From the NCBI RefSeq assembly GCF_900163655.1, contig NZ_FWFG01000089.1:1-42891 (forward strand): a stretch of 42,891 bases of DNA, read 5' to 3'. Below the pieces are notes generated by a model. The model was not told the DNA's origin. It did no database searches and was given only the letters and a program-made list of their open reading frames with translations. Below are positions 12,783-27,706 of this stretch, in pieces. The position numbers and the translations under genes are program-made. The stretch's first letter is position 1; every line of letters starts with the position of its first letter. The stretch is from Brachybacterium nesterenkovii. GTDB taxonomy: Bacteria; Actinomycetota; Actinomycetes; Actinomycetales; Dermabacteraceae.

Positions 12783-13413
12783 CGTTGCCACTCCTTCGCA
12801 AGTGGTCGAGCTGTGGTCTGTCAGGGGGTCGCGAGCACGATCTCATGCGCTCGCACGGCACGGGTGCGGATCACGGGAATTCTGGGGATCCGGCCACCTC
12901 GCGCGGATGCCCACAGTAGCCCGCTCGTGGACGACACGCCGAATCGAGTCCTTGACTCGGGGACGATCGTGACTCGCGCTCGCTCACGGACCCGGAGATC
13001 CTCATCGTCCGTGCTCCCTCCGGCCCTCGCTCCCCGCATCCCTCGGCGCCCCCGCCCCCATCCACATCCCCCGTGCTCCAAGAACTACAGACATCCTCTT
13101 CACGGCTGTCGATTCTGGGGAGAACCCGCATCGTCGCAGGTGGGCGCCGGAAAGAACGGTCACAGAGGCACGTGCACGAGTGCCCGTGCGCTGTCGATGC
13201 CCTGTGGAGGAGGACGCTCTGCGGATTCTCGGCGTTCATCGGGAATCCACATGGCGTCGTGGGGAAAGCTCCGTGACTCCACATTGTCCACAGCGTTGTT
13301 CACACTGGGGACAGACGAGGGCTGACCGGCCGTGTGATCCCCTTCCGCCGTCGGTCCCCTGATCTCATCCCACCCTGCGATCGACGACGAGGATCGGCCG
13401 CCGGGGTGTCTGC
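12783..13413. other. dnaN-dnaA intergenic region, probable oriC
   Basis: About 630 gene-free bases between dnaA and dnaN, the usual actinobacterial origin position. Two good DnaA boxes lie at 13284-13292 (TTGTCCACA) and 13296-13304 (TTGTTCACA). Weaker ones are at 13203-13211 (minus), 13243-13251 and the CCATCCACA near 13059. There are fewer strong boxes than expected and no striking AT-rich stretch, so the assignment rests mostly on position. The region must also hold the dnaN promoter. Confidence 0.6.
13284..13304 (+). promoter_or_regulatory. Pair of DnaA boxes
   Basis: TTGTCCACA (exact actinobacterial consensus) and TTGTTCACA (one mismatch) lie in the same orientation, 12 bases apart start to start, in the dnaN-dnaA spacer. 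This is the strongest DnaA-binding signal in the expected origin. Confidence 0.75.
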
Positions 13414-15051
13414 TCAGCCCTGCTGGGAGGACGAGTTCTTGATGCGCGCCGTGAGCTCGGTGACCTGGTTGAAGATCGCCCGCCGCTCCTTCATGAGCTC
13501 GGAGATCTTCTTGTTGGCGTGCATGACCGTCGTATGGTCGCGGCCGCCGAACTCCTGGCCGATGCGGATGAGCGGCATGTCCGTGAGCTCGCGGCACAGG
13601 TACATCGCGATCTGCCGCGCCGTGACGAGGGTGCGGGTGCGAGCCCCGCCGGTGATCTGGTCGACGGTGAGCCCGAAGTAGCTGGCTGTCTGGGCGATGA
13701 TCGTCGGCGCCGTGATCTCCGCGCCGTTGTCATGGGCCAGGAGGTCCTTGAGCACGGACTCCGCCAGCGACACGTCCATCGGCTGCCGGGAGAGCGAGTG
13801 CAGGGCCTGGACGCGGATCAGCGCGCCCTCGAGCTCGCGGATGTTCGAGGAGATGCGCGAGGCGATGTACTCGAGCACATCGCGCGGGACCTCCTGGGTC
13901 CCCTCCATCTGGACCTTCTTGCGCAGGATCGCGATGCGGGTCTCGAGGTCCGGCGGCTGCACGTCCGTCATGAGCCCCATCTCGAAGCGCGAGCGCATGC
14001 GGTCCTCGAAGCCGCCGAGCTGCTTGGGCGGCAGGTCCGAGGTGATGACGATCTGCTTGTCGGCGTTGTGCAGCGTGTTGAACGTATGGAAGAACGCCTC
14101 CATCGTCTCGGGCGCCCGCTGCAGGAACTGGATGTCGTCGATGAGCAGGATGTCGATGTCGCGGTAGCGGCGGTGGAACTCCTGCGCCTTGCCGAACTGG
14201 CCCGACTGGATGGAGTTGATGAAGTCGTTCGTGAACTCCTCGGAGTTGACGTAGCGGACCTCGATACCCGGGTAGAGGCTCTGGGCGTAGTGGCCCACGG
14301 CGTGCAGCAGGTGGGTCTTGCCCAGTCCGGAGCCGCCGTAGATGAACAGCGGGTTGTACGCCTTCGCGGGCGCCTCGGCGACGGCTGAGGCCGCGGCCTG
14401 GGCGAAGCGGTTGGAGGAGCCGATGACGAAGGTGTCGAAGGTGTACTTGGCGTTGAGCCGGGAGTCCGAGCCGAGGGTCGAGCCGTCGTCCGAAACGGAG
14501 GGCTCGGGACGACGGGGCGCCGGGGAGGGCGATGCGGTGCTCGGCGACGGGAAGCCGAGGACGGGTGCGGTGTCCGCGGGAGCCGCGGCGGAGCGGTCGG
14601 CGCGGGAGGAGGCGGCGTGGGTCACAGCGTCGTCCTCGCGTGCCCGATCACCTGCGGAGACGGGGGGAAGAGCGCTCGGGGGTGCGGTCGGTGCCGTGCT
14701 CTCCACAGTGTTGTCCACAGCGGTGCGGGGGCGACCGGAGCCCGTGCTCGGGGAGGGGACGGGATCGTCGTCGCCGTTGGAGAGCAGGGACTCGTCGATG
14801 GTGACCGCGAAGCGGGTGTCGCGCCCGGTGGTCTCCGACAGCGCCTCTCGCAGCGCGACCGGGATCCGCTGCTCGAACACGTCCTTCGCCCAGGGCGAAG
14901 GGGCCGCGAGCAGGGCAGTGTCCGCCACGACACCCATCAGGCGGGACAGGGTCAGGAACGCCATGACGCGCTCGGAGACCGTCTCGTCGCGACGCAGGAT
15001 GCGCAGGGCCTCGTCCCAGGTCGCGTCGAGGTCGACGTCGTTCTCGTCCAT
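13414..15051 (-). CDS. dnaA: Chromosomal replication initiator protein DnaA
   Basis: A 545-residue AAA+ initiator. Domain I runs from [19 protein letters not shown] to about residue 95. A long Pro/Ser/Ala-rich domain II linker (about 100-200) follows. The AAA+ core begins [20 protein letters not shown], with Walker A GGSGLGKT (about 239-247) and Walker [12 protein letters not shown] (about 294-304). Domain IV carries the DnaA signature [15 protein letters not shown] (about 498-512). ATG at 15051 has GGAG seven bases upstream. DnaA-box-like sites upstream (15090, 15122) suggest autoregulation, and the linker coding sequence contains a perfect DnaA box at 14711. Confidence 0.98.
14699..14719 (+). 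promoter_or_regulatory. DnaA-box pair inside dnaA
   Basis: CTCTCCACA (14699-14707) and a perfect TTGTCCACA (14711-14719) lie 12 bases apart within the linker-coding part of dnaA. This is the same spacing as the pair in the dnaN-dnaA spacer. Confidence 0.45.
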
Positions 15052-15089
15052 GTGGTGGCTCCGGGGTCGCGGGCTAATGTCCCCGATAG

Positions 15090-15130
15090 TTTTCCACAGG
15101 ATGGGGGAGAAAGGCACAACGCTGTCCACA
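15090..15130 (+). promoter_or_regulatory. DnaA-box-like sites upstream of dnaA
   Basis: TTTTCCACA (15090-15098) and CTGTCCACA (15122-15130) each differ from TTGTCCACA at one base. They lie 40-80 bases before the dnaA start, a position suited to autoregulation. Confidence 0.5.
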
Positions 15131-15228
15131 ATCCTGGGGTCGCCCGGCCCGACCTGCACGACCGGAGGCGGACCCGCTGGGACCCGGTGAGAAACCGACC
15201 ACATCTCCCCGGGGGTCCGATGATTCCG

Positions 15229-15257
15229 TTGACCCCTCCGAAGGCCCCGCCTAGACT
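15229..15257 (+). promoter_or_regulatory. Promoter of the rpmH operon
   Basis: TTGACC (15229-15234) and TAGACT (15252-15257) are separated by exactly 17 bases: a near-consensus housekeeping promoter, the best in the window. It predicts a start near 15264 and a leader of about 140 bases before rpmH. Confidence 0.8.
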
Positions 15258-15404
15258 CGATCAGTCTGTGCTGCGCAGGAGCGCGGTGACTTCCCCAGGA
15301 TGCGGCGCCTTCGGCGCGCCCGGAGAAGCCCGCCCGGTGCGGCCGGCCGCCCGCCACCGCGATCGCGGACCGCCCCGGTCCGCGTGCCTGTCTGAGGAGA
15401 TGTC

Positions 15405-18290: not shown

Positions 18291-19166
18291 GTGATGGCTT
18301 CCGACGGTCCGGGGACGGGACGGCGCACGGCTCCTGACGGGACCCGCGCATCGTCCGACGATCCCGCCGGTCGCGCGTCCGGGCCCGCCGCAGCGCTCAC
18401 GAGCACGCCGTCGCCCGTTCCCGCGGATCTGCGCCCGCTCGCCGAGCGCCTGTTCGGCGACCGCCTGGCACTCGCGGAGCGCTTCACGGGACTGCTGATG
18501 GCCCACGGCGTAGAGCGCGGGCTGATCGGCCCCCGCGAGGTGGACCGTCTGTGGGAGCGCCACGTGCTCAACTGCGCGCTGCTCGTCGACGCACTGCCCG
18601 CGCAGGCGCGGACCCTCGCCGATGTCGGTTCCGGAGCCGGCCTGCCCGGGCTGGTCATCGCGATCGCCCGCCCGGACCTGCGCGTGACGCTCATCGAGAC
18701 GATGCAGCGCCGCGTGACCTGGCTCGAGGAGGCCTCGGTGGCGCTGGGCCTTCAGGTCGAGGTGGTGCGCGCGAGAGCCGAGGAGCTGCACGGGCAGCGA
18801 ACCTTCGACGTCGTGACGGCGCGGGCCGTCGCGGCCCTGGACAAGCTGGCGAGGTGGACCCTGCCGCTCGTGGCCGATAACGGGCACCTGCTCGCGATGA
18901 AGGGGAGCTCCGCGGCCACCGAGATCGAGGCCGCGGAGAAGACCCTGCGGCGCCTCGGCGGCCTGGATCCCCAGGTTCACGTGGTCGGGGAGGGCGAGGT
19001 CGAGCTTCCCACTACAGTGGTCACGGTCCGCCGCGCCGAGCGCCCGGAGGCGCCCGTCGCGGGCGCCCGGCGATCGGGGCGGGACGCGCAGGGCAAGCCC
19101 GCTGCGAGGAAGAATGCCTCGCGCACGACGACATCGAGAGGAGCCCGCCATGGCCGCACGCGCTGA
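18291..19166 (+). CDS. rsmG: 16S rRNA (guanine-N7) methyltransferase RsmG
   Basis: A 291-residue SAM-dependent enzyme that methylates G527 (E. coli numbering) of 16S rRNA. The SAM loop is LADVGSGAGLPGLVIAIA (about 108-125), followed by VTLIETMQRRVTWLEE and FDVVTARAVAALDKL. The conserved LWERHVLNCALL precedes it. Both ends carry low-complexity extensions (about 45 N-terminal and 45 C-terminal residues). The start could be GTG 18291 or ATG 18294; neither has a clear ribosome site, and the gene begins seven bases after the jag stop, so coupling is likely. The 3' end overlaps parA by 17 bases. Confidence 0.93.
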   Translation: MMASDGPGTGRRTAPDGTRASSDDPAGRASGPAAALTSTPSPVPADLRPLAERLFGDRLALAERFTGLLMAHGVERGLIGPREVDRLWERHVLNCALLVDALPAQARTLADVGSGAGLPGLVIAIARPDLRVTLIETMQRRVTWLEEASVALGLQVEVVRARAEELHGQRTFDVVTARAVAALDKLARWTLPLVADNGHLLAMKGSSAATEIEAAEKTLRRLGGLDPQVHVVGEGEVELPTTVVTVRRAERPEAPVAGARRSGRDAQGKPAARKNASRTTTSRGARHGRTR

Positions 19167-20172
19167 GTCCGCCCAGGGCCCTGCGACGGGAGAGGGCCCC
19201 GCGACGGGAGAGGGCGCCTCGCGGGGAGCCCGCGGCGCCGGCCGCTCCTCCCGTGCCGCATCGTCACCGCTGGCCGCCGATGCGGCGGCGATGAGCGACA
19301 GCCCGATCATGAAGGCCCTCGCCCAGGACCATGCCCGTCGTCGAGAGCTGGAGGGACTCGTGCTCGATGCCCCGGAGACCACCCGCATCCTGACCGTCGC
19401 CAATCAGAAGGGCGGCGTCGGCAAGACGTCAACCACCGTGAACCTCGCCGCGGCCCTGGCCATGGGCGGGCTGAACGTGCTGGTCATCGACGTGGACCCG
19501 CAGGGGAACGCCTCGACCGCGCTCGGCATCGACCATCACGCCGAGGTCGCGAGCATGTACGAGGTGCTCGTGGAATCGCGTCCGATGGCCGAGGTGGTCC
19601 AGCCCTGCCCCGACATCGAGCGTTTGTGGTGCGCGCCGGCGACGATCGATCTGTCGGGCGCCGAGATCGAGCTGGTGGCGATGGTCGCCCGCGAGAACCG
19701 CCTGCGCGGCGCGATCCGCGACTTCCTGGCGGACCACGCCAAGAGCGGGGCCGAGCGCCTGGACTACGTGCTCATCGACTGTCCGCCGTCGCTGGGCCTG
19801 CTGACGGTCAACGCCCTGGTCGCGGCCCGTGAGGTGCTCATCCCCATCCAGTGCGAGTACTACGCGCTCGAGGGCCTCACGCTGCTGCTCAAGAATATCG
19901 ATCTGCTGCGGGCGCATCTGAACCCGGAGCTCGTCGTCTCGACGATCCTGCTGACGATGTACGACGGCCGCACCCGTCTGGCCTCGCAGGTGGCCGAGGA
20001 TGTGCGCGAGCATTTCCCGGAGCAGACGCTCGAGACGACGATCCCGCGCTCGGTCCGGATCTCCGAGGCCCCGAGCTACGGGCAGACGGTACTCTCGTAC
20101 GACCCGACGAGCTCCGGTGCGCTGGCGTATCGAGCCGCCGCGCGCGAGCTCTCCCTCCGCACCGCTCACTGA
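19150..20172 (+). CDS. parA: Chromosome partitioning ATPase ParA
   Basis: A 340-residue Walker-type ATPase of the chromosomal ParA/Soj family. After an ~80-residue low-complexity N-terminus with a repeated ATGEGP unit come TRILTVANQKGGVGKTSTTV (deviant Walker A with the signature lysine), LVIDVDPQGNAS, and YVLIDCPPSLGLLTVNAL (Walker B). SVRISEAPSYGQTVLSYDP near the C-terminus is diagnostic of Soj-type ParA. ATG at 19150 was chosen for AGGAG six bases upstream. It overlaps rsmG, and parB follows after 93 bases. It works with ParB bound at parS to segregate origins. Confidence 0.97.
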   Translation: MAARAESAQGPATGEGPATGEGASRGARGAGRSSRAASSPLAADAAAMSDSPIMKALAQDHARRRELEGLVLDAPETTRILTVANQKGGVGKTSTTVNLAAALAMGGLNVLVIDVDPQGNASTALGIDHHAEVASMYEVLVESRPMAEVVQPCPDIERLWCAPATIDLSGAEIELVAMVARENRLRGAIRDFLADHAKSGAERLDYVLIDCPPSLGLLTVNALVAAREVLIPIQCEYYALEGLTLLLKNIDLLRAHLNPELVVSTILLTMYDGRTRLASQVAEDVREHFPEQTLETTIPRSVRISEAPSYGQTVLSYDPTSSGALAYRAAARELSLRTAH

Positions 20173-20265: not shown

Positions 20266-22053
20266 ATGACGCAGAAGCGTGGCCTCGGCCGTGGACTCGG
20301 TGCCCTGATCCCGGGGGCCGGCAGCCCGGCGGCGCGCCCCTCGGCACCCTCCCCCGCCCCGGAGCATCGGAGCCCTGCGGAGGCCGACGCGGCGGGCCTG
20401 CGCACGCGCAGCCACCCGCGCACCGCGCCCGAGCCCGGCGAGGCCGGGGCGAGCAGCCGACCCGTCGACATGTTCTTCTCGGGCGACCCCGTGGGGGCGG
20501 CGGAGCGCACCGGCGGTCGCGCCGGGTCGGGCCGCGACGTGGCCGGGGCGATGGCGCGGGCCGCCGCGGAGCGTCGTGCGTCGGGGAAGACCCCGGCGAA
20601 GAAGGCTGCTGCGGAGAAGGCGGTCGTGGAGAAGGCGCCCGCGAAGAAGGCCCCGGCGAAGACCGCTGCGGGGAAGGCCGATGCAGGGAAGACGGCTGCG
20701 ACGAAGCGCTCTCCCCGCTCGACGTCAACGACGCCCGCTGGTGCGACCCCCGAGCCCGCCACCGCTGCACCCGAGACTGCGGCGCCGGAGGATGTGTCCC
20801 CCGAGGAGAGCGCGCTCGAGAGCGCCGTCGAGGTCGAGCGCGTGACGCCGACTCCGGCCCGCTCCCGTCGTCCGGCCCAGGCTGATGCCTCCGATTTCTC
20901 GGATCACGACACCGCGCCTGCGGGTGACGGGGCTGCTGCGCCGGACGCTGACGTGGACGATGCCGGAGCGGTGGGTGACGGTGCTGCGATGGACAAGGCA
21001 GGCACCGCGTCCGCCCAGGACGCGGATGCCGTGACTGAGCCGACCGAGCCCGCCGCGGAGGCTGCTGCAGCCGACGATCTGGAGACTCCGGCTCCCGAGG
21101 ACGACGCTCCGGAGGACGACAACCCGGAGCACGGTGCCCCGGAGGACAGCGACGGCCCTGCCACCGAAAACTCCGGCCGCGAGGACCTGCTGCCCGTCCC
21201 CGGTGCCGAGTTCGCTGAGATCCCGATCCATGAGATCCGGGAGAACCCGCGCAATCCGCGCACGCAGTTCGACGAGGACGCCCTCGATGAGCTCGCCTAC
21301 TCCCTGCGCGAGGTGGGCGTGCTGCAGCCCATCGTCGTCCGCCCCATCCCCGCCACGGACACGGGCGAGTCCTTCGAGCTGGTCATGGGCGAGCGCCGCT
21401 GGCGCGCCGCCCGCCGGGCCGGCCTCGTGACGATTCCCGCGATCATCCGGGAGACCACCGACGACGACCTGCTGCGCGATGCCCTCCTGGAGAACCTCCA
21501 CCGTTCCCAGCTGAACCCCTTGGAAGAGGCCGCGGCGTACCAGCAGCTCCTCGAGGACTTCGGGTGCACCCAGGACGAGCTCTCCGAGCGCATCGGTCGT
21601 TCTCGTCCGCAGATCTCCAACACCCTGCGCCTGATGAAGCTCCCCCCGCTCGTGCAGCGTCGTCTCGCGTCGGGCGCGCTGTCGGCCGGTCATGCGCGCG
21701 CCCTGCTCGGCCTCGACAGTCCCGCGCTGATGGAGGAGCTGGCCCAGCGGATCGTCGCGGAGGGTCTGTCCGTCCGCGCTGTCGAGCGTCTGGTGTCGCG
21801 AGGCGTCGAGCCCGCAGCGGCGACGAAGACCCCGCGCCGCACCTCGTACGATCCCCGCGTGGTCGACTACACCAGTCGGCTCTCCACCCGTCTCGAGGCG
21901 CCGGTGCGCATCGACGTGGGCAAGCGCAAGGGCAAGATCACGCTCGAGTTCACCAACCTGGAGGACCTCGAGCGTCTGATGGACCGCCTGGGGATCGAGG
22001 AGTACCGCTCCGATGCCGCTGAGGGCTCGGAGGCCACCTCCCACCAGGAGTGA
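20266..22053 (+). CDS. parB: Chromosome partitioning protein ParB with long linker insertion
   Basis: A 595-residue centromere-binding CTPase. The N-terminal ParA-contact motif [13 protein letters not shown] is followed by about 290 residues of Ala/Lys then Asp/Glu/Pro-rich, probably disordered, sequence ([10 protein letters not shown] units near 125-145; [11 protein letters not shown] near 65-75). The conserved core starts about 305: [17 protein letters not shown], the CTP-binding GERRWRAAR (375-383), [17 protein letters not shown] (about 409-425), and a helix-turn-helix [22 protein letters not shown]-terminal dimerisation segment ends the protein. Most chromosomal ParBs are about 300-390 residues. 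ATG at 20266 has AAGGA upstream. Ten parS-like sites lie just downstream. Confidence 0.97.
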
Positions 22054-23229
22054 GCAACCGGCCGCGCTGATGCGGCAGGCGGTGGACGTGTTCGGTGCGC
22101 CGCGGGGTAGGGGCGCGCTTGCTGGACGACTCCGTTCCCGCGATCCACATCCCCGACCCCTACGCGCGGATGGACGCCGGGGCATTCCGATCGCCGATCG
22201 TTCGATGCCAGCACCAGCACCGCCGGCCCGCCGCCTCCGCAGGAATGCGCTCCGGCCACGCTGGAAGTCGCGAGGAGGCGTTGCCCGTTCCCTCGTCACT
22301 ACCCCGGGGCGGAGCACTGCGGGGCCGCGATGGTGAGCCCCGTCCCGGCGTGGCCGACGCGGTTGCGCAGAGGGCAGATTTCCTCCGTACCCTCCCGGTA
22401 GCGAGCCGCACCCTTCCCGAAAGCGAGGGCGCGATGCGCTGGATTCCACCGCGCTGCGGCGAGACACGGTGCCATAACAGCATCATTCACGGCCCTTGAC
22501 CGCTAGACCGCGTCACCGCGGCAGTGCCAGCCTGGAGCAGTTGCCGTTGACGTGCACTGGGCGCTGATTGCGGACCATCGGGTGTCGAGCGCTGGATGCT
22601 GCGCGTCGGGGGCCGGGCGCCGGGCAGGAGGATTCGGAAGACGACGGGGTGGCCCCGGTGCCGCATGCCCTGTGGGTCAAGTTCCTGTGCCGCGGCGCGG
22701 CTCGCCTGCTGCACTCCCTCCGCATCGCCCTTGTCGTCCGGGTGGCCTCCCCCTGGCTGCCTGGGGCCTGAGATCGCAGAACTGTGGAGCTCGTCAGTCG
22801 GGTGGGAGCTCAGCGAAGCGGCGCGAACCGGTCGCGCTCCGGTGCCCCTGCTCTGTTCCAGCACGCCGACGCTCCTCCGGTACCGCAGGCGTGCCCCGTT
22901 GCCCGGCAGATGATCGAACGATGGACGGCCACCGCTCAAGAGGACTCGACCCCGCCCTGCGTGAGTCGGACAGCTGCGCGGCCCGGATCGTGGTGAGTAC
23001 GGGCTTGTGACGTGTGTGGTCGGGAGGGCCGAACGCCCCGCTGATACGGCCTCCTGAAACAGAGTGTGTGTCGGAACGGCGCCGCCCGAGGAAGCACCGA
23101 GCGGGACGACGAACAACCGTGCGGGACGAGATGCCGGGCCAGGCTGCACCACCGAGTGTCCTGTCACTGTCAGGCGTCTTCGTAGTGCACCCCGCGCTCG
23201 CGAGCATGTGAGCACCGTGGCTGTGAGGA

Positions 23230-23245
23230 TGTTTCACGCGAAACA
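23230..23245 (+). promoter_or_regulatory. parS-like site 1
   Basis: TGTTTCACGCGAAACA: 15 of 16 matches to the ParB consensus TGTTTCACGTGAAACA; the centre is CACGCG. It is the exact reverse complement of site 8 at 24515. Confidence 0.85.
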
Positions 23246-23377
23246 TCGGCGACGGAGCGTGCCGAGGCGCTGCACTGTGACGCCAGACACACCCTTGCGC
23301 CCCTGTCAAACCTCTCCCGCCGTAGTGGGAGCAGTACGCACGCCGCCATCCAGGGATTCGCCGGGGGTGCGACCCGC

Positions 23378-23393
23378 CGCTTCACGTGAAACG
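23378..23393. promoter_or_regulatory. parS-like site 2
   Basis: CGCTTCACGTGAAACG: 13 of 16 matches to the parS consensus, with an intact CACGTG core and right half-site GTGAAAC. Confidence 0.75.
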
Positions 23394-23663
23394 GAGCGCG
23401 GGGAATGAAGGATCCTGGAGAAGCCCTCGACGTGCGGAGACGCCCCGGGGATTCCGTCACGAAATATCACGGGACTAGTGGCGGACGCACTCCGGGCTAG
23501 CGCAGCCCGGACTCGACCGACCTCCGAGCTTGCGCGTCTCCCGACCGCTGGACCCCGCAGATGAGAGTGGGGTGTCGGCGCCCATTGTCTTGCTCCGCGC
23601 TCTTACCCCTCCCGCTAGCTCCTCCCTCTCGCTCTGAGCGAAGTATCGACAACCTGTTGGATG

Positions 23664-23679
23664 TGTTCCACGTGAAGCA
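23664..23679. promoter_or_regulatory. parS-like site 3
   Basis: TGTTCCACGTGAAGCA: 14 of 16 matches to the parS consensus, with an intact CACGTG core. Confidence 0.8.
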
Positions 23680-23823
23680 CGCGGTGGCCCTCGCTGTTGG
23701 TGCTTGACGTCTACGACGCCATCGTTGTACACAGGTGTCCGTTGTGGCCGGACTGCGGCGCGGCTGAACCGAGAGAGCTGCTGTTAGGCACCCGCCGCCG
23801 ACACCGCGACGTGTTCCAAGGCA

Positions 23824-23839
23824 AGCTCCACGTGAAACC
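23824..23839. promoter_or_regulatory. parS-like site 4 (weak left half)
   Basis: AGCTCCACGTGAAACC: 12 of 16 matches. The core and right half are good and the left half is degenerate. Confidence 0.6.
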
Positions 23840-23930
23840 GGGGTATTGAGCTGTGCCATTCGCATTCACGCTCCCTCGTACCCCATCGCGGCGGAGCAGC
23901 TCACGATCCCATCGGCGTGAAGTGCCTCTG

Positions 23931-23946
23931 GGCTTCACGTGAAACA
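23931..23946. promoter_or_regulatory. parS-like site 5
   Basis: GGCTTCACGTGAAACA: 14 of 16 matches to the parS consensus, with intact core and right half. Confidence 0.82.
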
Positions 23947-24050
23947 ACCACGCCACGTTGCCATGTCTTGTGTCCGTGTCGAATCCTGAGTGCTCGCCCA
24001 CGTGCAGTGGCGCAACCTGCGGTACGCGAGACAGTCGGGCGCAGACGAAG

Positions 24051-24066
24051 TGATTCACGTGAAACC
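24051..24066. promoter_or_regulatory. parS-like site 6
   Basis: TGATTCACGTGAAACC: 14 of 16 matches to the parS consensus, with an intact core. Confidence 0.82.
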
Positions 24067-24185
24067 TGATCAATTGTCGATGCGGAGTCACACGCCGCGC
24101 TGGCGGGTCTCGTTCTCGGCATGTACGTCGGGTCCCGTTCTCGTCATGTCCTAACGACGGTGCGTTGCCCAAGATGCCGGACCCA

Positions 24186-24201
24186 CGTTTCACGTGAAGC
24201 A
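24186..24201. promoter_or_regulatory. parS-like site 7
   Basis: CGTTTCACGTGAAGCA: 14 of 16 matches to the parS consensus, with an intact core and left half-site. Confidence 0.82.
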
Positions 24202-24514
24202 AGTGGCCCCTCGACGCTTCACAGGGATTGGTGACGTCCACGCACCCGTGCCCGCGCGACGCCACATCTCCGCGTCCATACACCGGCCGCACTGCCTGCA
24301 CCTCCGAGGTGGGTTGACGGCGGTGCTCGACCGGCGATACGACGTTCTGCCGACGAGGAGGCATTCGCGACGAGCTCGCAGAGCAGTGGTCACGTCGAGA
24401 TCATCGCCGCTGCTGAGCACCGCTGCGCTTCACTTCCCGTGACAAGGCCGCCGGAGGGGGCATAGACCACGTCATCCCTCTTGACGGACGGGCGGCCAGC
24501 GGCGATCCACACCG

Positions 24515-24530
24515 TGTTTCGCGTGAAACA
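24515..24530 (-). promoter_or_regulatory. parS-like site 8
   Basis: TGTTTCGCGTGAAACA: 15 of 16 matches. It is identical to site 1 read on the opposite strand; the core is CGCGTG. Confidence 0.85.
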
Positions 24531-24794
24531 TGCTGTACGCGGCCATCGAGACATCCCATGTGCTTGCCGCAGGAAGGGAGGGGAATGCCGCGCCGCGTGC
24601 CGATCTCATGTCGACGGATCCACATGTGCAGGCGGATAGCCGAGGCGGCACGGTCGGCCCGACGGCTAGCCCGCAGCGGTGGTGTAGCACTGGCCCTCAG
24701 TCGCAGACCAGAACTTCCGCTTGTGCAGACCGGAGCCTTCGCTCGCTCGCTCCGAGCCGTGGCGTGGGGACCCGAAATGCCGCCCGACGGTGGA

Positions 24795-24810
24795 GGTTTC
24801 GCGTGAAACA
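24795..24810 (-). promoter_or_regulatory. parS-like site 9
   Basis: GGTTTCGCGTGAAACA: 14 of 16 matches, with the same CGCGTG core variant and orientation as site 8. Confidence 0.8.
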
Positions 24811-25079
24811 CGGAAGCGAGGGGGCTCCGTCGGACCCCGTGCGCGGAGGAACGAGGAATTCTGGAGCGTGGCTCGCATTGTCTTTGTCCGTCAGCTGCGC
24901 CGGTCTGTGCCGGCTCGGCGGCCTGCAAGGATGGGATTGCGATACCCGGTGCGGAAGCCCGCTGCGGAGACCCGGTGAGGACAAGCAGAGCGGACACCCG
25001 ACGGGTGGGCCCGGGTGTAATCAGAGCAGCCGGATGGGGCGCGTGTGCCCATCGCCCGTGTCAAGCGCCGAGCCGAAGA

Positions 25080-25095
25080 GGTTCCACGGGAAACG
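25080..25095. promoter_or_regulatory. parS-like site 10 (degenerate)
   Basis: GGTTCCACGGGAAACG: 12 of 16 matches, with core CACGGG. It is the weakest site and marks the right edge of the cluster. Confidence 0.5.
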
Positions 25096-25294
25096 CGGCA
25101 ATGATGCCGAAGCCGTGATGTCCCGACTCCGTGCCGTGGGGTGGGACCGCAACCCATCGGTGGCATCCCCATCGGGGTTTCCGTGAGCAGGCGATCCGCA
25201 AGGACACCGTCGCCGGACCGATGATGTCGTTTACTGCCGCTGCGTCAACGGGGAGTTCGCCCCGTCATGCCGTTGTCCCCCTCGGGGATGACGC

Positions 25295-25303
25295 TGTGGA
25301 TGA
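25295..25303 (-). promoter_or_regulatory. DnaA-box-like site
   Basis: On the minus strand TCATCCACA, one mismatch from TTATCCACA. It lies about 140 bases left of the main DnaA-box group. Confidence 0.4.
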
Positions 25304-25383
25304 CGAGGAGAGGAACGCAGCGCTCTTTTCCACCGCGGGGATGCGGTCCTCGATTCAGGTGGTGCGCTCCGGAGCCACGCAGA

Positions 25384-25503
25384 GACACATTCCTGCAGGT
25401 CACAGCCCATTATGTGACACATTCCTCACCAGCAGTCCACAGTGTGCGCGGGCTGTGGAAAACCGTGTGGACAATAGCTCGACTCGTCAGCACACCTTCC
25501 ACA
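25384..25503. promoter_or_regulatory. Origin-like DnaA-box group with direct and inverted repeats
   Basis: Bases 25384-25394 and 25416-25426 are an 11-base direct repeat (GACACATTCCT) 32 bases apart. Between them lies a TCACA/TGTGA dyad (25400-25417). Box-like sites follow: CAGTCCACA (25433-25441), TTTTCCACA on the minus strand (25454-25462), a perfect TTGTCCACA on the minus strand (25466-25474), and CCTTCCACA (25495-25503). The first two form a head-to-head TCCACAG/CTGTGGA dyad. The segment is visibly AT-richer than its surroundings. It could be an auxiliary or alternative origin element or a DnaA-titration site. Confidence 0.5.
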
Positions 25504-25688
25504 GGAAAAGTAGGGACGACAGTCCCGACATGAGCGTCGTGCGCACCTCTTTCCGCTGCCCTTCGCGATCCCGTTCCCGACTGAGTGCGGATCGACGCGG
25601 GGATGGATGCGGGCTCAGTCACGCCGACGGGTGACGACGTGGAATCACGGGTGCATGTATGGGCCTGCCCCCGTAACGGGAATCCCGC

Positions 25689-26354
25689 TCAGGTCTGTGC
25701 ACCGAGGCTGTCCGGGGATGTGCTGTCCGAGGAAGGGTTGCCCGAGGACGGGCTGTCCCCTGTGCCCGTCGTGTCGTGGTCGGTGGTCCCGTGCCACGGG
25801 CCGGCGTTCAGCGGCGCGCGCCCGTGGGTGGATGTCGCTGTGCTGCTGGCGGTGAAGATGGTCCTCTCCACTTCGTGCTTGGCACGAGCACCTTCGAGCC
25901 GCGAGGTCTCCTGCCATGCAGCGGTGCGGTCGTCATCGGCGCGGTGCGCCCGAGCTCGCTCGAGCCGTACCCACGTGGGGACGACGCTGACCTGCAGGGC
26001 GCCGAGCAGATCCTCGCTCGGCACCTCGTCCCGAAGCAACCGGGGACGCGCACTCGTGGGATCGTCGGTGCCAGACACGGGCCGGTCAGGTGGAACAGCC
26101 CCGCTCTCCTCGGATCCAGGATCCGGCGCACGACGGGCTGGTGCAGGGTCGCCGACGACCACGCGGTATCCCGGGGGAAGAGCCACCAGGGGCTCCGCGA
26201 TGTCCACGACGAGCACCTCGATGCTCTCCTGATGTCTGCGGGCGAGCTCACGCGCCGTGCTCAGTGACGGGCGTGACGGGGTCGCCCAGGAGGCCCAGAA
26301 GAGCAGGACCAGTGCGTCCTGGCGATCGGACCCAGGTGGTGATGACACTGTCAT
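25689..26354 (-). CDS. Thioredoxin-fold protein lacking the redox cysteines
   Basis: A 221-residue protein in the position of trxA/trxC beside trxB. LVLLFWASWATPSRPS (15-30) aligns with the thioredoxin FWAxWCGPCR segment, but the two cysteines are Ala24 and Ser27. The following helix (STARELARRH) and strand (IEVLVVDI) fit the fold. The cis-proline segment VSVVPTWVRL (123-132) is present. An Ala/Pro-rich insertion (about 60-105) separates the halves, and the last ~60 residues are Ser/Thr/Gly/Asp-rich. It has no CxxC and so cannot be an ordinary thiol reductant. ATG at 26354 has only a weak ribosome site. It is probably a diverged thioredoxin with a binding or structural role; no function can be assigned. 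Confidence 0.7.
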   Translation of the reverse strand: MTVSSPPGSDRQDALVLLFWASWATPSRPSLSTARELARRHQESIEVLVVDIAEPLVALPPGYRVVVGDPAPARRAPDPGSEESGAVPPDRPVSGTDDPTSARPRLLRDEVPSEDLLGALQVSVVPTWVRLERARAHRADDDRTAAWQETSRLEGARAKHEVERTIFTASSTATSTHGRAPLNAGPWHGTTDHDTTGTGDSPSSGNPSSDSTSPDSLGAQT

Positions 26355-26650: not shown

Positions 26651-27706
26651 TCAGGCCTGCGCCGCCGCTGCGGCGGTGTCGGCGAGCCAGCGCTCGGCAT
26701 CCAGCGCCGCCTGGCACCCGGAACCGGCCGCCGTGATCGCCTGGCGGTAGGTGTGGTCCACGACGTCGCCGCACGCGAACACGCCCTCGACGCTCGTGCG
26801 GGTCGAACGGCCCTGGCACACGATGTAGCCCTGCTCGTCGAGCTCGAGCTTGCCCGCGAACAGGCCCGAGCGCGGTAGATGCCCGATCGCCTCGAACACG
26901 GCATCGGTGCGGATCTCCCGCTCCTCGCCCGTGACGGTGTCGCGCACGGTCAGAGAGGTGACGGCCTCCTCGCCGCTGATCCGCACCGGCTGCGCGTTCC
27001 ACGCGAACTCGAGCTTCGGGTCGGCCTCGGCGCGGGCGGCCATGATCTTCGAGGCCCGCAGCTGGTCGCGACGGTGCGCCAGGGTGACCGAGCGCCCGTA
27101 GCGGGTCAGGAACGTGGCCTCCTCGACGGCGCTGTCGCCGCCGCCGACCACCACGATGTCCTTGTCCTTGAAGAAGAAGCCGTCGCACGTCGCGCACCAG
27201 GAGACACCACGGCCGGAGAACTCCTTCTCGCCCTCGATGCCGAGCTCGCGGTAGGCGGAGCCGGTCGCGATGATCAGGGCCTTCGCGCGGTAGACCGTGC
27301 CGTCCTCGAGCGTCACCGTCTTCACGGGGCCCTCCAGAGAGACCTCCACCGCGTCCTCGAACAGCACCTCGGCGCCGAAGCGCTCGGCCTGCTCCTGCAT
27401 CGTGGCCATGAGCTCGGGGCCCATCACGCCCTTGGCGAAGCCGGGGAAGTTCTCCACCTCGGTGGTGGTCATGAGCGCGCCGCCGGCATCCAGCGACCCG
27501 GCGATCACGATCGGCTCCATCTCCGCGCGGGCCGCGTAGATCGCCGCCGTGTACCCGGCGGGGCCGGAGCCGATGATGACGACCTCGTGCACGCGATCGG
27601 CCTCGGGGCGGGGCTGATCGCCAGCGCCCACGGCATCGGCGGACGCGGAGGAGCTCGCGCCGACGAGGCCGGGCAGGACGGTGACGGGCTGGACGGGATC
27701 GGTCAT
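26651..27706 (-). CDS. trxB: Thioredoxin-disulfide reductase
   Basis: A 351-residue FAD/NADPH flavoenzyme that reduces thioredoxin. The FAD loop is [17 protein letters not shown] (about 44-60), the active-site disulfide is WCATCDG (Cys171, Cys174), and the NADPH loop is [12 protein letters not shown] (186-197). The C-terminal FAD segment is [19 protein letters not shown]. It has an ~38-residue extra N-terminus. ATG at 27706 has AAGGA about seven bases upstream. The neighbouring thioredoxin-fold gene lacks cysteines, so the substrate thioredoxin must be encoded elsewhere. Confidence 0.97.

Follow-up and report, generated by a model that had tools for sequence, protein, structure and literature searches.

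The 42,891-nucleotide stretch of Brachybacterium nesterenkovii DNA analysed here (the window) contains an array of ten parS-like sites downstream of parB (positions 23230..25095, a candidate centromere identified by motif scan). As judged from sequence, this array is probably the centromere of the chromosome's ParABS system, driven by ParA and built from redundant, imperfect sites that have no role in condensin function. The array holds up as a genuine feature and represents a variant of the parS clusters already known. More unusual than its compactness are four traits that coincide in one lineage, with a possible causal link between them, and in which its interest lies: genus-wide degeneracy of the sites, DnaA boxes beside the array, a long linker in ParB and an apparently missing condensin.

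Genomic DNA was scanned for 16-mers resembling TGTTTCACGTGAAACA and for the 14-base core GTTTCACGTGAAAC. The ten sites, none of which is assigned a strand any more than the array as a whole, lie at 23230..23245 (one mismatch to TGTTTCACGTGAAACA), 23378..23393 (three mismatches), 23664..23679 (two), 23824..23839 (four), 23931..23946 (two), 24051..24066 (two), 24186..24201 (two), 24515..24530 (one), 24795..24810 (two) and 25080..25095 (four). The ten starts given in the initial annotation, and the spacings of 148, 286, 160, 107, 120, 135, 329, 280 and 285 bases between them, were reproduced exactly. Its description of the sites as 16-base palindromes held for the match to the consensus (12–15 of 16 positions), but no site is a perfect palindrome, as only 5–7 of the eight arm pairs are complementary. 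Chance can be excluded because eight sites occur at ≤3 mismatches where 0.03 were expected, and none of 100 shuffled sequences reached eight. The genome assembly (3.02 Mb in 119 contigs, 99.98% complete) yielded eight 16-mer sites at ≤3 mismatches, all of them inside the array, while the core scan at ≤2 mismatches returned ten sites genome-wide (reversed control, 0), equal by count to the ten core sites of the array itself. The proposed genome-wide test for enrichment was therefore positive, with no further site elsewhere at the sensitivity used, except that a site in an assembly gap might escape a scan of 119 contigs.

The gene order around the array is dnaN (−), dnaA (13414..15357, −, assigned by family search), yidC, jag, gidB, parA (19114..20172, +, with an uncertain start and a frame that overlaps gidB) and parB (20266..22053, +), then the array, an open reading frame without a Pfam or NCBIfam match (25689..26354, −) and the thioredoxin-reductase-like gene trxB (26651..27706, −), the right bound of the interval. 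The name dnaN is based on gene position and on resemblance to relatives, and trxB on these two together with its Pfam domain. The genes that flank the array therefore point towards it. The dnaA–dnaN gap (12792..13413, no strand), the usual place of oriC, holds two DnaA boxes at ≤1 mismatch. The interval around the array (22054..25688, no strand) was defined as non-coding by family search and tblastn, in agreement with the earlier description of a gene-free interval adjoining parB: six open reading frames across it gave no NCBIfam match at E ≤ 0.1, and 64 stop-to-stop frames of at least 40 aa, compared by tblastn with 24 genus loci, gave one weak match (E 5e-4) in one locus. Of 24 genus loci, 20 show weak conservation of the first ∼50 residues of the bordering frame at 25689..26354. 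Rfam analysis of the window detected two tRNAs only, and a scan for promoter-like (1 hit versus 0.3 in shuffles) and terminator-like elements (3 versus 1.6) was uninformative. In two genus loci (L008 and L060), a conserved terminator-like hairpin could be seen in the alignment directly 3' of parB.

This setting is not that of a plasmid-type centromere, one of two possibilities raised initially: the yidC-jag-gidB-parA-parB order near dnaA is chromosomal, as is the parS motif clustered beside parA-parB, RepB and PRTRC models scored under their cut-offs, and the neighbours include dnaA, yidC and gidB. The other possibility, a point-like chromosomal centromere, fits, as the sites are confined to this interval, non-coding and conserved in the closest pair of loci.

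For comparison across the genus, 26 further loci were fetched, one of which (L050) repeats another (L009), leaving 25 distinct loci, or 26 with the window. All 27 genus loci carry 10–17 sites at ≤4 mismatches in the parB–trxB interval, and the arrays span 1.2–2.3 kb except in L063 (4.3 kb). In this locus (from genome G017) a gap of ∼2.76 kb, perhaps an insertion, splits the array. Three genus loci have one extra four-mismatch match outside the parB–trxB interval. At ≤3 mismatches, matches were found in 35 of 38 genus genomes, the three without being 74–88% complete, and at ≤2 core mismatches each of 13 genomes gave 10–18 hits (reversed controls, 0–1). Among the matches listed for five other genomes, 69 of 69 hits fall in a single 1.7–2.3 kb stretch per genome. 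The expectation that sites would be conserved over diverged flanks was borne out in the closest pair, L008 and L060, where site identity is 89% and windows shifted by at least 16 bp average 44% (maximum 49%). Seven more distant genus pairs have site identities of 47–57% versus 38–39% in the flanks, a drop which indicates that single sites or positions turn over. The spacing of the sites is too even for chance: for 299 spacings from 25 loci, with a median of 139 bp, the mean coefficient of variation was 0.49, compared with 0.84 ± 0.04 for random placement and 0.555 ± 0.026 when a 60-bp exclusion zone was imposed, which is still above the observed value. Helical phasing of the spacings was considered and rejected, with no peak near 10.5 bp; R was highest (0.125) at the limit of the periods tried, 12.0 bp, and 11.0 gave 0.112, where about 0.058 is expected.

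The sites of the genus are degenerate. Among 405 genus sites (32 loci, ≤2 core mismatches), only five have a perfect core, while 218 have one mismatch and 182 have two; the 117 sites from outside the genus comprise 85 perfect cores, 27 with one mismatch and five with two. At least one perfect core is present in two of 32 genus loci versus 20 of 23 outside genomes (21 order relatives and the actinobacterial MAGs L011 and L012, with G044 excluded), the three without being GC-rich order relatives. G044, a complete genome of an order relative, has no parS site at ≤3 mismatches, yet ScpA and ScpB are present. Substitutions in the genus fall mainly at three half-site positions (mostly A to C/G near the centre, and T to C/G), and four other half-site positions are at least 97% constant. 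Most simply, this pattern would mean that a single core mismatch carries little cost in the genus. Half-sites are not independent, because shuffling them within genomes predicts 58 perfect cores where five were observed. Selection against perfect sites was nevertheless rejected as an explanation: active avoidance is not required, because drift on a flat plateau predicts about one perfect site per 28 with a single mismatch, compared with 1:44 observed, in a rough model in which one core mismatch is free and the tolerated changes are picked from the data. The imperfect half has no clear polarity (96 left versus 73 right). The window ParB features R173, T179, K184 and G201, a combination that, according to the accessible text of PMC7383237, is promiscuous when engineered into ParB. 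A promiscuous ParB was rejected as a sufficient cause of degeneracy, since 22 of the 23 outside ParBs also have K or R at position 184, although their sites are mostly perfect.

The window ParB (595 aa, starting at the first start codon of its frame) features a ParB_N domain from residue 315, with the GERRxxA motif present as MGERRWRAA, followed by HTH_ParB and the C-terminal dimer domain ParB_C. Between an N-terminal peptide and ParB_N lies a long linker of ∼300 aa (20314..21205, +, approximate borders), in which no Pfam domain was found. This linker measures 237–464 residues in 30 genus ParBs (median 343.5) and 27–204 residues outside the genus (median 104), where it could be delimited in 16 of 23 ParBs. 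All 30 genus ParBs contain the sequence DMFFSG, as well as a basic 60-residue window (+8 to +15) followed by an acidic one; for the 16 outside ParBs, the charge of the most basic window is −4 at the median but ranges up to +14. A related D-x-F/L-F motif occurs in 21 of 23 ParBs of order relatives. The genus linker is rich in A, P, S, T, K, E and D, and from this composition we describe it as probably disordered and H1-like. Eight ParB positions (54, 58, 96, 193, 195, 197, 231 and 252 in Caulobacter numbering) are fixed in the genus and differ in the order, among them a Q to N change in the NPxQPR motif.

DnaA boxes were counted with the DnaA-box motif TTRTCCACA at ≤1 mismatch. Across 25 genus loci, 130 boxes fall within 600 bp after the array (8.67/kb), 44 within up to 400 bp before it (4.54/kb) and nine in the arrays themselves (0.20/kb), while the density elsewhere is 0.22/kb (24 loci), an enrichment of ∼40-fold just behind the array. 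Twenty scrambled motifs gave ≤0.52/kb in every zone and the reversed motif 0.33/kb. Boxes at the centromere, as known from Caulobacter, were thus found in 25 of 25 genus loci, each with one or more behind the array, and 109 of the 130 post-array boxes are in minus orientation. In the window, three DnaA-box-like sites lie behind the array (25295..25474, −), starting at 25295 (one mismatch), 25454 (one) and 25466 (none). A box before the array is present in 19 of 25 loci; bracketing is not universal, because six of the 25 have none there and, in the window, the preceding 400 bp contain no box at ≤1 mismatch. The dnaA–dnaN gap has a mean of 2.9 boxes in the genus (1.1 perfect, n = 22) versus 4.35 in the order (n = 17), and the 600 bp behind the array have a mean of 5.2 (2.2 perfect, n = 25). 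Outside the genus, 19 loci (L012 counted) have both parB and trxB, and in 18 of them the interval between the two contains 0–2 boxes. The exception is G042 (locus L083), from another family, which has ten boxes and parS downstream of parB, including head-to-tail perfect boxes, and is possibly a parallel case of parS with DnaA boxes in an ScpA-bearing genome. The lower-GC relatives L071 and L080 have six and eight boxes, respectively, between gidB and parB.

It is unlikely that the array interval is a working origin, in which the post-array boxes would be oriC or half of a bipartite oriC and origin and centromere would form one element. Boxes after the array do outnumber those in the dnaA–dnaN gap of the genus, and most share a single orientation, but the gap retains boxes at about the level of relatives, the sequence behind the array has no conspicuously AT-rich stretch and the genes from yidC to parB would run against the replication fork. 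In addition, skew is weakly positive in 22 of 25 arrays, as expected to the right of an origin between dnaA and dnaN, with the qualification that, in the window, skew is mostly a matter of the strand on which genes lie. Relocation of the origin into the array is not supported, and oriC seems, without certainty, to be kept at its usual place. A more serious contender, although still doubtful, is that the boxes are a titration or reactivation site that lies beside the centromere by chance, with no joint function. Clusters of DnaA boxes near oriC, such as datA and DARS, have these roles in other bacteria, which lends this reading some weight. Against it, the boxes lie behind the array in all 25 genus loci and in a member of another genus (G063), and boxes between parB and trxB are rare in the order, where the exception (G042) also has parS there.

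Family searches did not identify an encoded SMC-ScpAB complex, which an SMC-loading centromere would need. ScpA (PF02616) was found in one of 47 family genomes (G066) versus 22 of 22 order relatives. The 46 family genomes without it are G000–G037, G060–G065, G067 and G068, and it was not found in any of the 38 genus genomes, five of which are <90% complete. ScpB (PF04079) was detected in none of eight genus genomes and in 19 of 19 order relatives, and SMC_prok_B, which was run on 16 genomes, all of the genus, had no match above its cut-off of 567 bits, the best score being 44. Model controls scored above cut-off in 10 of 14 genomes for SMC_prok_B and in 9 of 14 each for ScpA and ScpB; among bacterial condensins, the search covered SMC, ScpA and ScpB. 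In the window genome, two SMC_N matches above cut-off are RecN and a RecF-like gene, and the top SMC_prok_B match is a YhgE/Pip membrane protein. The SMC-ScpAB condensin appears to have been lost in the lineage. A review that includes B. faecium places Smc, ScpA and ScpB in nearly all actinobacteria (accessible text of PMC4255298). Natural loss of smc is plausible because its deletion is tolerated in Corynebacterium glutamicum, as stated in the available part of PMC11898615. No published report of condensin absence in actinobacteria was found in the accessible literature, with most subscription journals beyond the search.

Two family members outside the genus suggest an order of events. G063, which belongs to another genus and lacks ScpA, has ten sites at ≤1 core mismatch within 1.08 kb downstream of parB (spacings of 70–163 bp, five perfect cores) with five DnaA boxes right behind them, and its ParB linker of 171 residues has the acidic window first, unlike the genus. 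G066, the sole ScpA-bearing family member, has 14 sites over 7.7 kb, nine of them perfect and one within parB, along with seven one-mismatch DnaA boxes spread thinly over a 7.6-kb interval (four in the last 1.2 kb) and a ParB linker of 214 residues. In a tree built from four protein fragments, G066 branches outside the group of G063 and the genus (local support 0.95 and 1.00), and at the eight genus-fixed ParB positions G063 agrees at all eight and G066 at none. Given this tree and these traits, the earliest step therefore seems to be the shift downstream of parB. Compaction falls on the same branch as ScpA loss, and the degeneration of the sites would have followed later, in the genus. The link between compaction and ScpA loss is a single correlation, because both fall on one branch of the tree, as one event read from two outside family members.

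These data make it very improbable that the array is an ordinary SMC-loading centromere whose degeneracy reflects drift in a GC-rich genome. The remaining ParABS anatomy is ordinary and ScpA-bearing order relatives cluster their sites too, but searches of the genus turned up neither ScpA nor ScpB nor SMC, the SMC_N matches of the window genome are accounted for by RecN and the RecF-like gene, and GC-rich order relatives mostly retain perfect sites, apart from the three without; this reading is already refuted unless a highly diverged SMC-ScpAB is present. Slightly better placed, yet still improbable, is an array made mostly of relics, with one or two working sites and decaying copies around them. 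The rarity of perfect cores (5/405) would agree with this, as would C. glutamicum, in which, in the accessible text of PMC7083940, a single parS is enough and degenerate sites with at least three mismatches do not recruit ParB. Three of the ten window sites carry 3–4 mismatches, which also counts against our explanation. However, each genus locus keeps 10–17 evenly spaced sites, site identity reaches 89% over diverged flanks and changes are confined to three half-site positions, none of which suits decaying copies. Least probable by far is that ParB is a Noc-like nucleoid-occlusion factor with NBS-like sites. Many half-sites are hybrids that carry C at the position specific to NBS, and the top NCBIfam match by E-value is nucleoid_noc, albeit far under its cut-off (205 versus 315 bits), but the gene comes after parA, half-site position 1 is G in 99%, and the window protein has R173 and G201 (Caulobacter numbering) as in ParB, instead of Q173 and R201. 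Residues 173 and 201 distinguish ParB from Noc specificity in the accessible text of PMC7383237, and a Noc identity was rejected on these residues.

We therefore infer a ParA-driven point centromere that would no longer serve SMC loading. ParB dimers would load at the ten imperfect parS sites, close as CTP-dependent clamps and slide across the non-coding interval, and ParA would move the ParB complex and thereby segregate the origin region. As 1.9 kb contains ten loading sites and DnaA would sit at its edge, clamps may accumulate in the gene-free interval, where DnaA could act as a roadblock, as a coupler of segregation to replication, or both. The linker, which contains a basic block and carries the putative ParA-contact peptide at its end, might provide extra reach and non-specific DNA binding. 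The accessible text of PMC7053999 describes ParB clamps that slide after loading at parS and that proteins on the DNA can halt. Many redundant, imperfect and packed sites would suffice here because there would be no condensin to load and parS would serve ParA-driven segregation only. A bolder proposal, which we regard as tentative, is a condensin-free centromere, in which parS and ParB would have become a self-sufficient module once SMC-ScpAB was lost, and in which an even array of weak sites, fenced or gated by DnaA, and a ParB with an H1-like tail condense and segregate the origin without loop extrusion from parS.

The contrast drawn initially between packed sites here and dispersed sites in most bacteria survived only in part: the sites are packed, but most of the 21 order relatives have theirs within a few kb of gidB-parA-parB, so compactness alone is not unusual. 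These relatives share the gene order and have parS a few kb from parAB; they differ in having 2–10 sites (≤2 core mismatches), mostly perfect and mostly around gidB-parA, and in the presence of ScpA (22/22). DnaA binding at the Caulobacter centromere was reportedly described by Mera in 2014. DnaA at this centromere acts in segregation, and the shared element is a DnaA-binding sequence at parS (accessible parts of PMC6399470 and PMC4468827), whereas here several predicted boxes lie beside a ten-site array. In the available descriptions of rctA/parS2 on Vibrio cholerae chromosome II, an initiator-binding site is likewise joined to parS by the origin, but the initiator is RctB and the described effect is on replication. 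Myxococcus xanthus has a denser cluster, with 22 parS sites in 3 kb, ∼4 kb upstream of parA (accessible text of PMC3899335). The likeness lies in many imperfect parS sites in a short stretch near parAB, ∼35 kb from oriC, and the difference in their position upstream of parA and their consensus TGTTCCACGTGGAACG (PMC3899335), compared with ten sites in 1.9 kb downstream of parB here. The window array is of this Myxococcus type, with at least ten parS in ∼3 kb, outside genes and near parAB. C. glutamicum also has ten actinobacterial parS sites in one region, nine of them intergenic, but they extend over 35 kb, lie 73 kb from oriC and load SMC, as far as described in the accessible text of PMC7083940. 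Among the matches listed, no title indicated a study of parS or ParB in Brachybacterium, with most subscription journals beyond the search, and this negative does not prove novelty.

In most bacteria, parS serves both ParA-driven segregation and condensin loading. Because of this double use, the demands that each task places on the sites are hard to separate. A large, culturable genus that apparently lacks SMC-ScpAB is a natural experiment in this respect. With it one can ask how a chromosome is organised without ParB-loaded condensin, which of the features of parS, dispersion and perfect palindromes among them, are there because of SMC, and whether centromeric DnaA serves repeatedly as a means of coupling.
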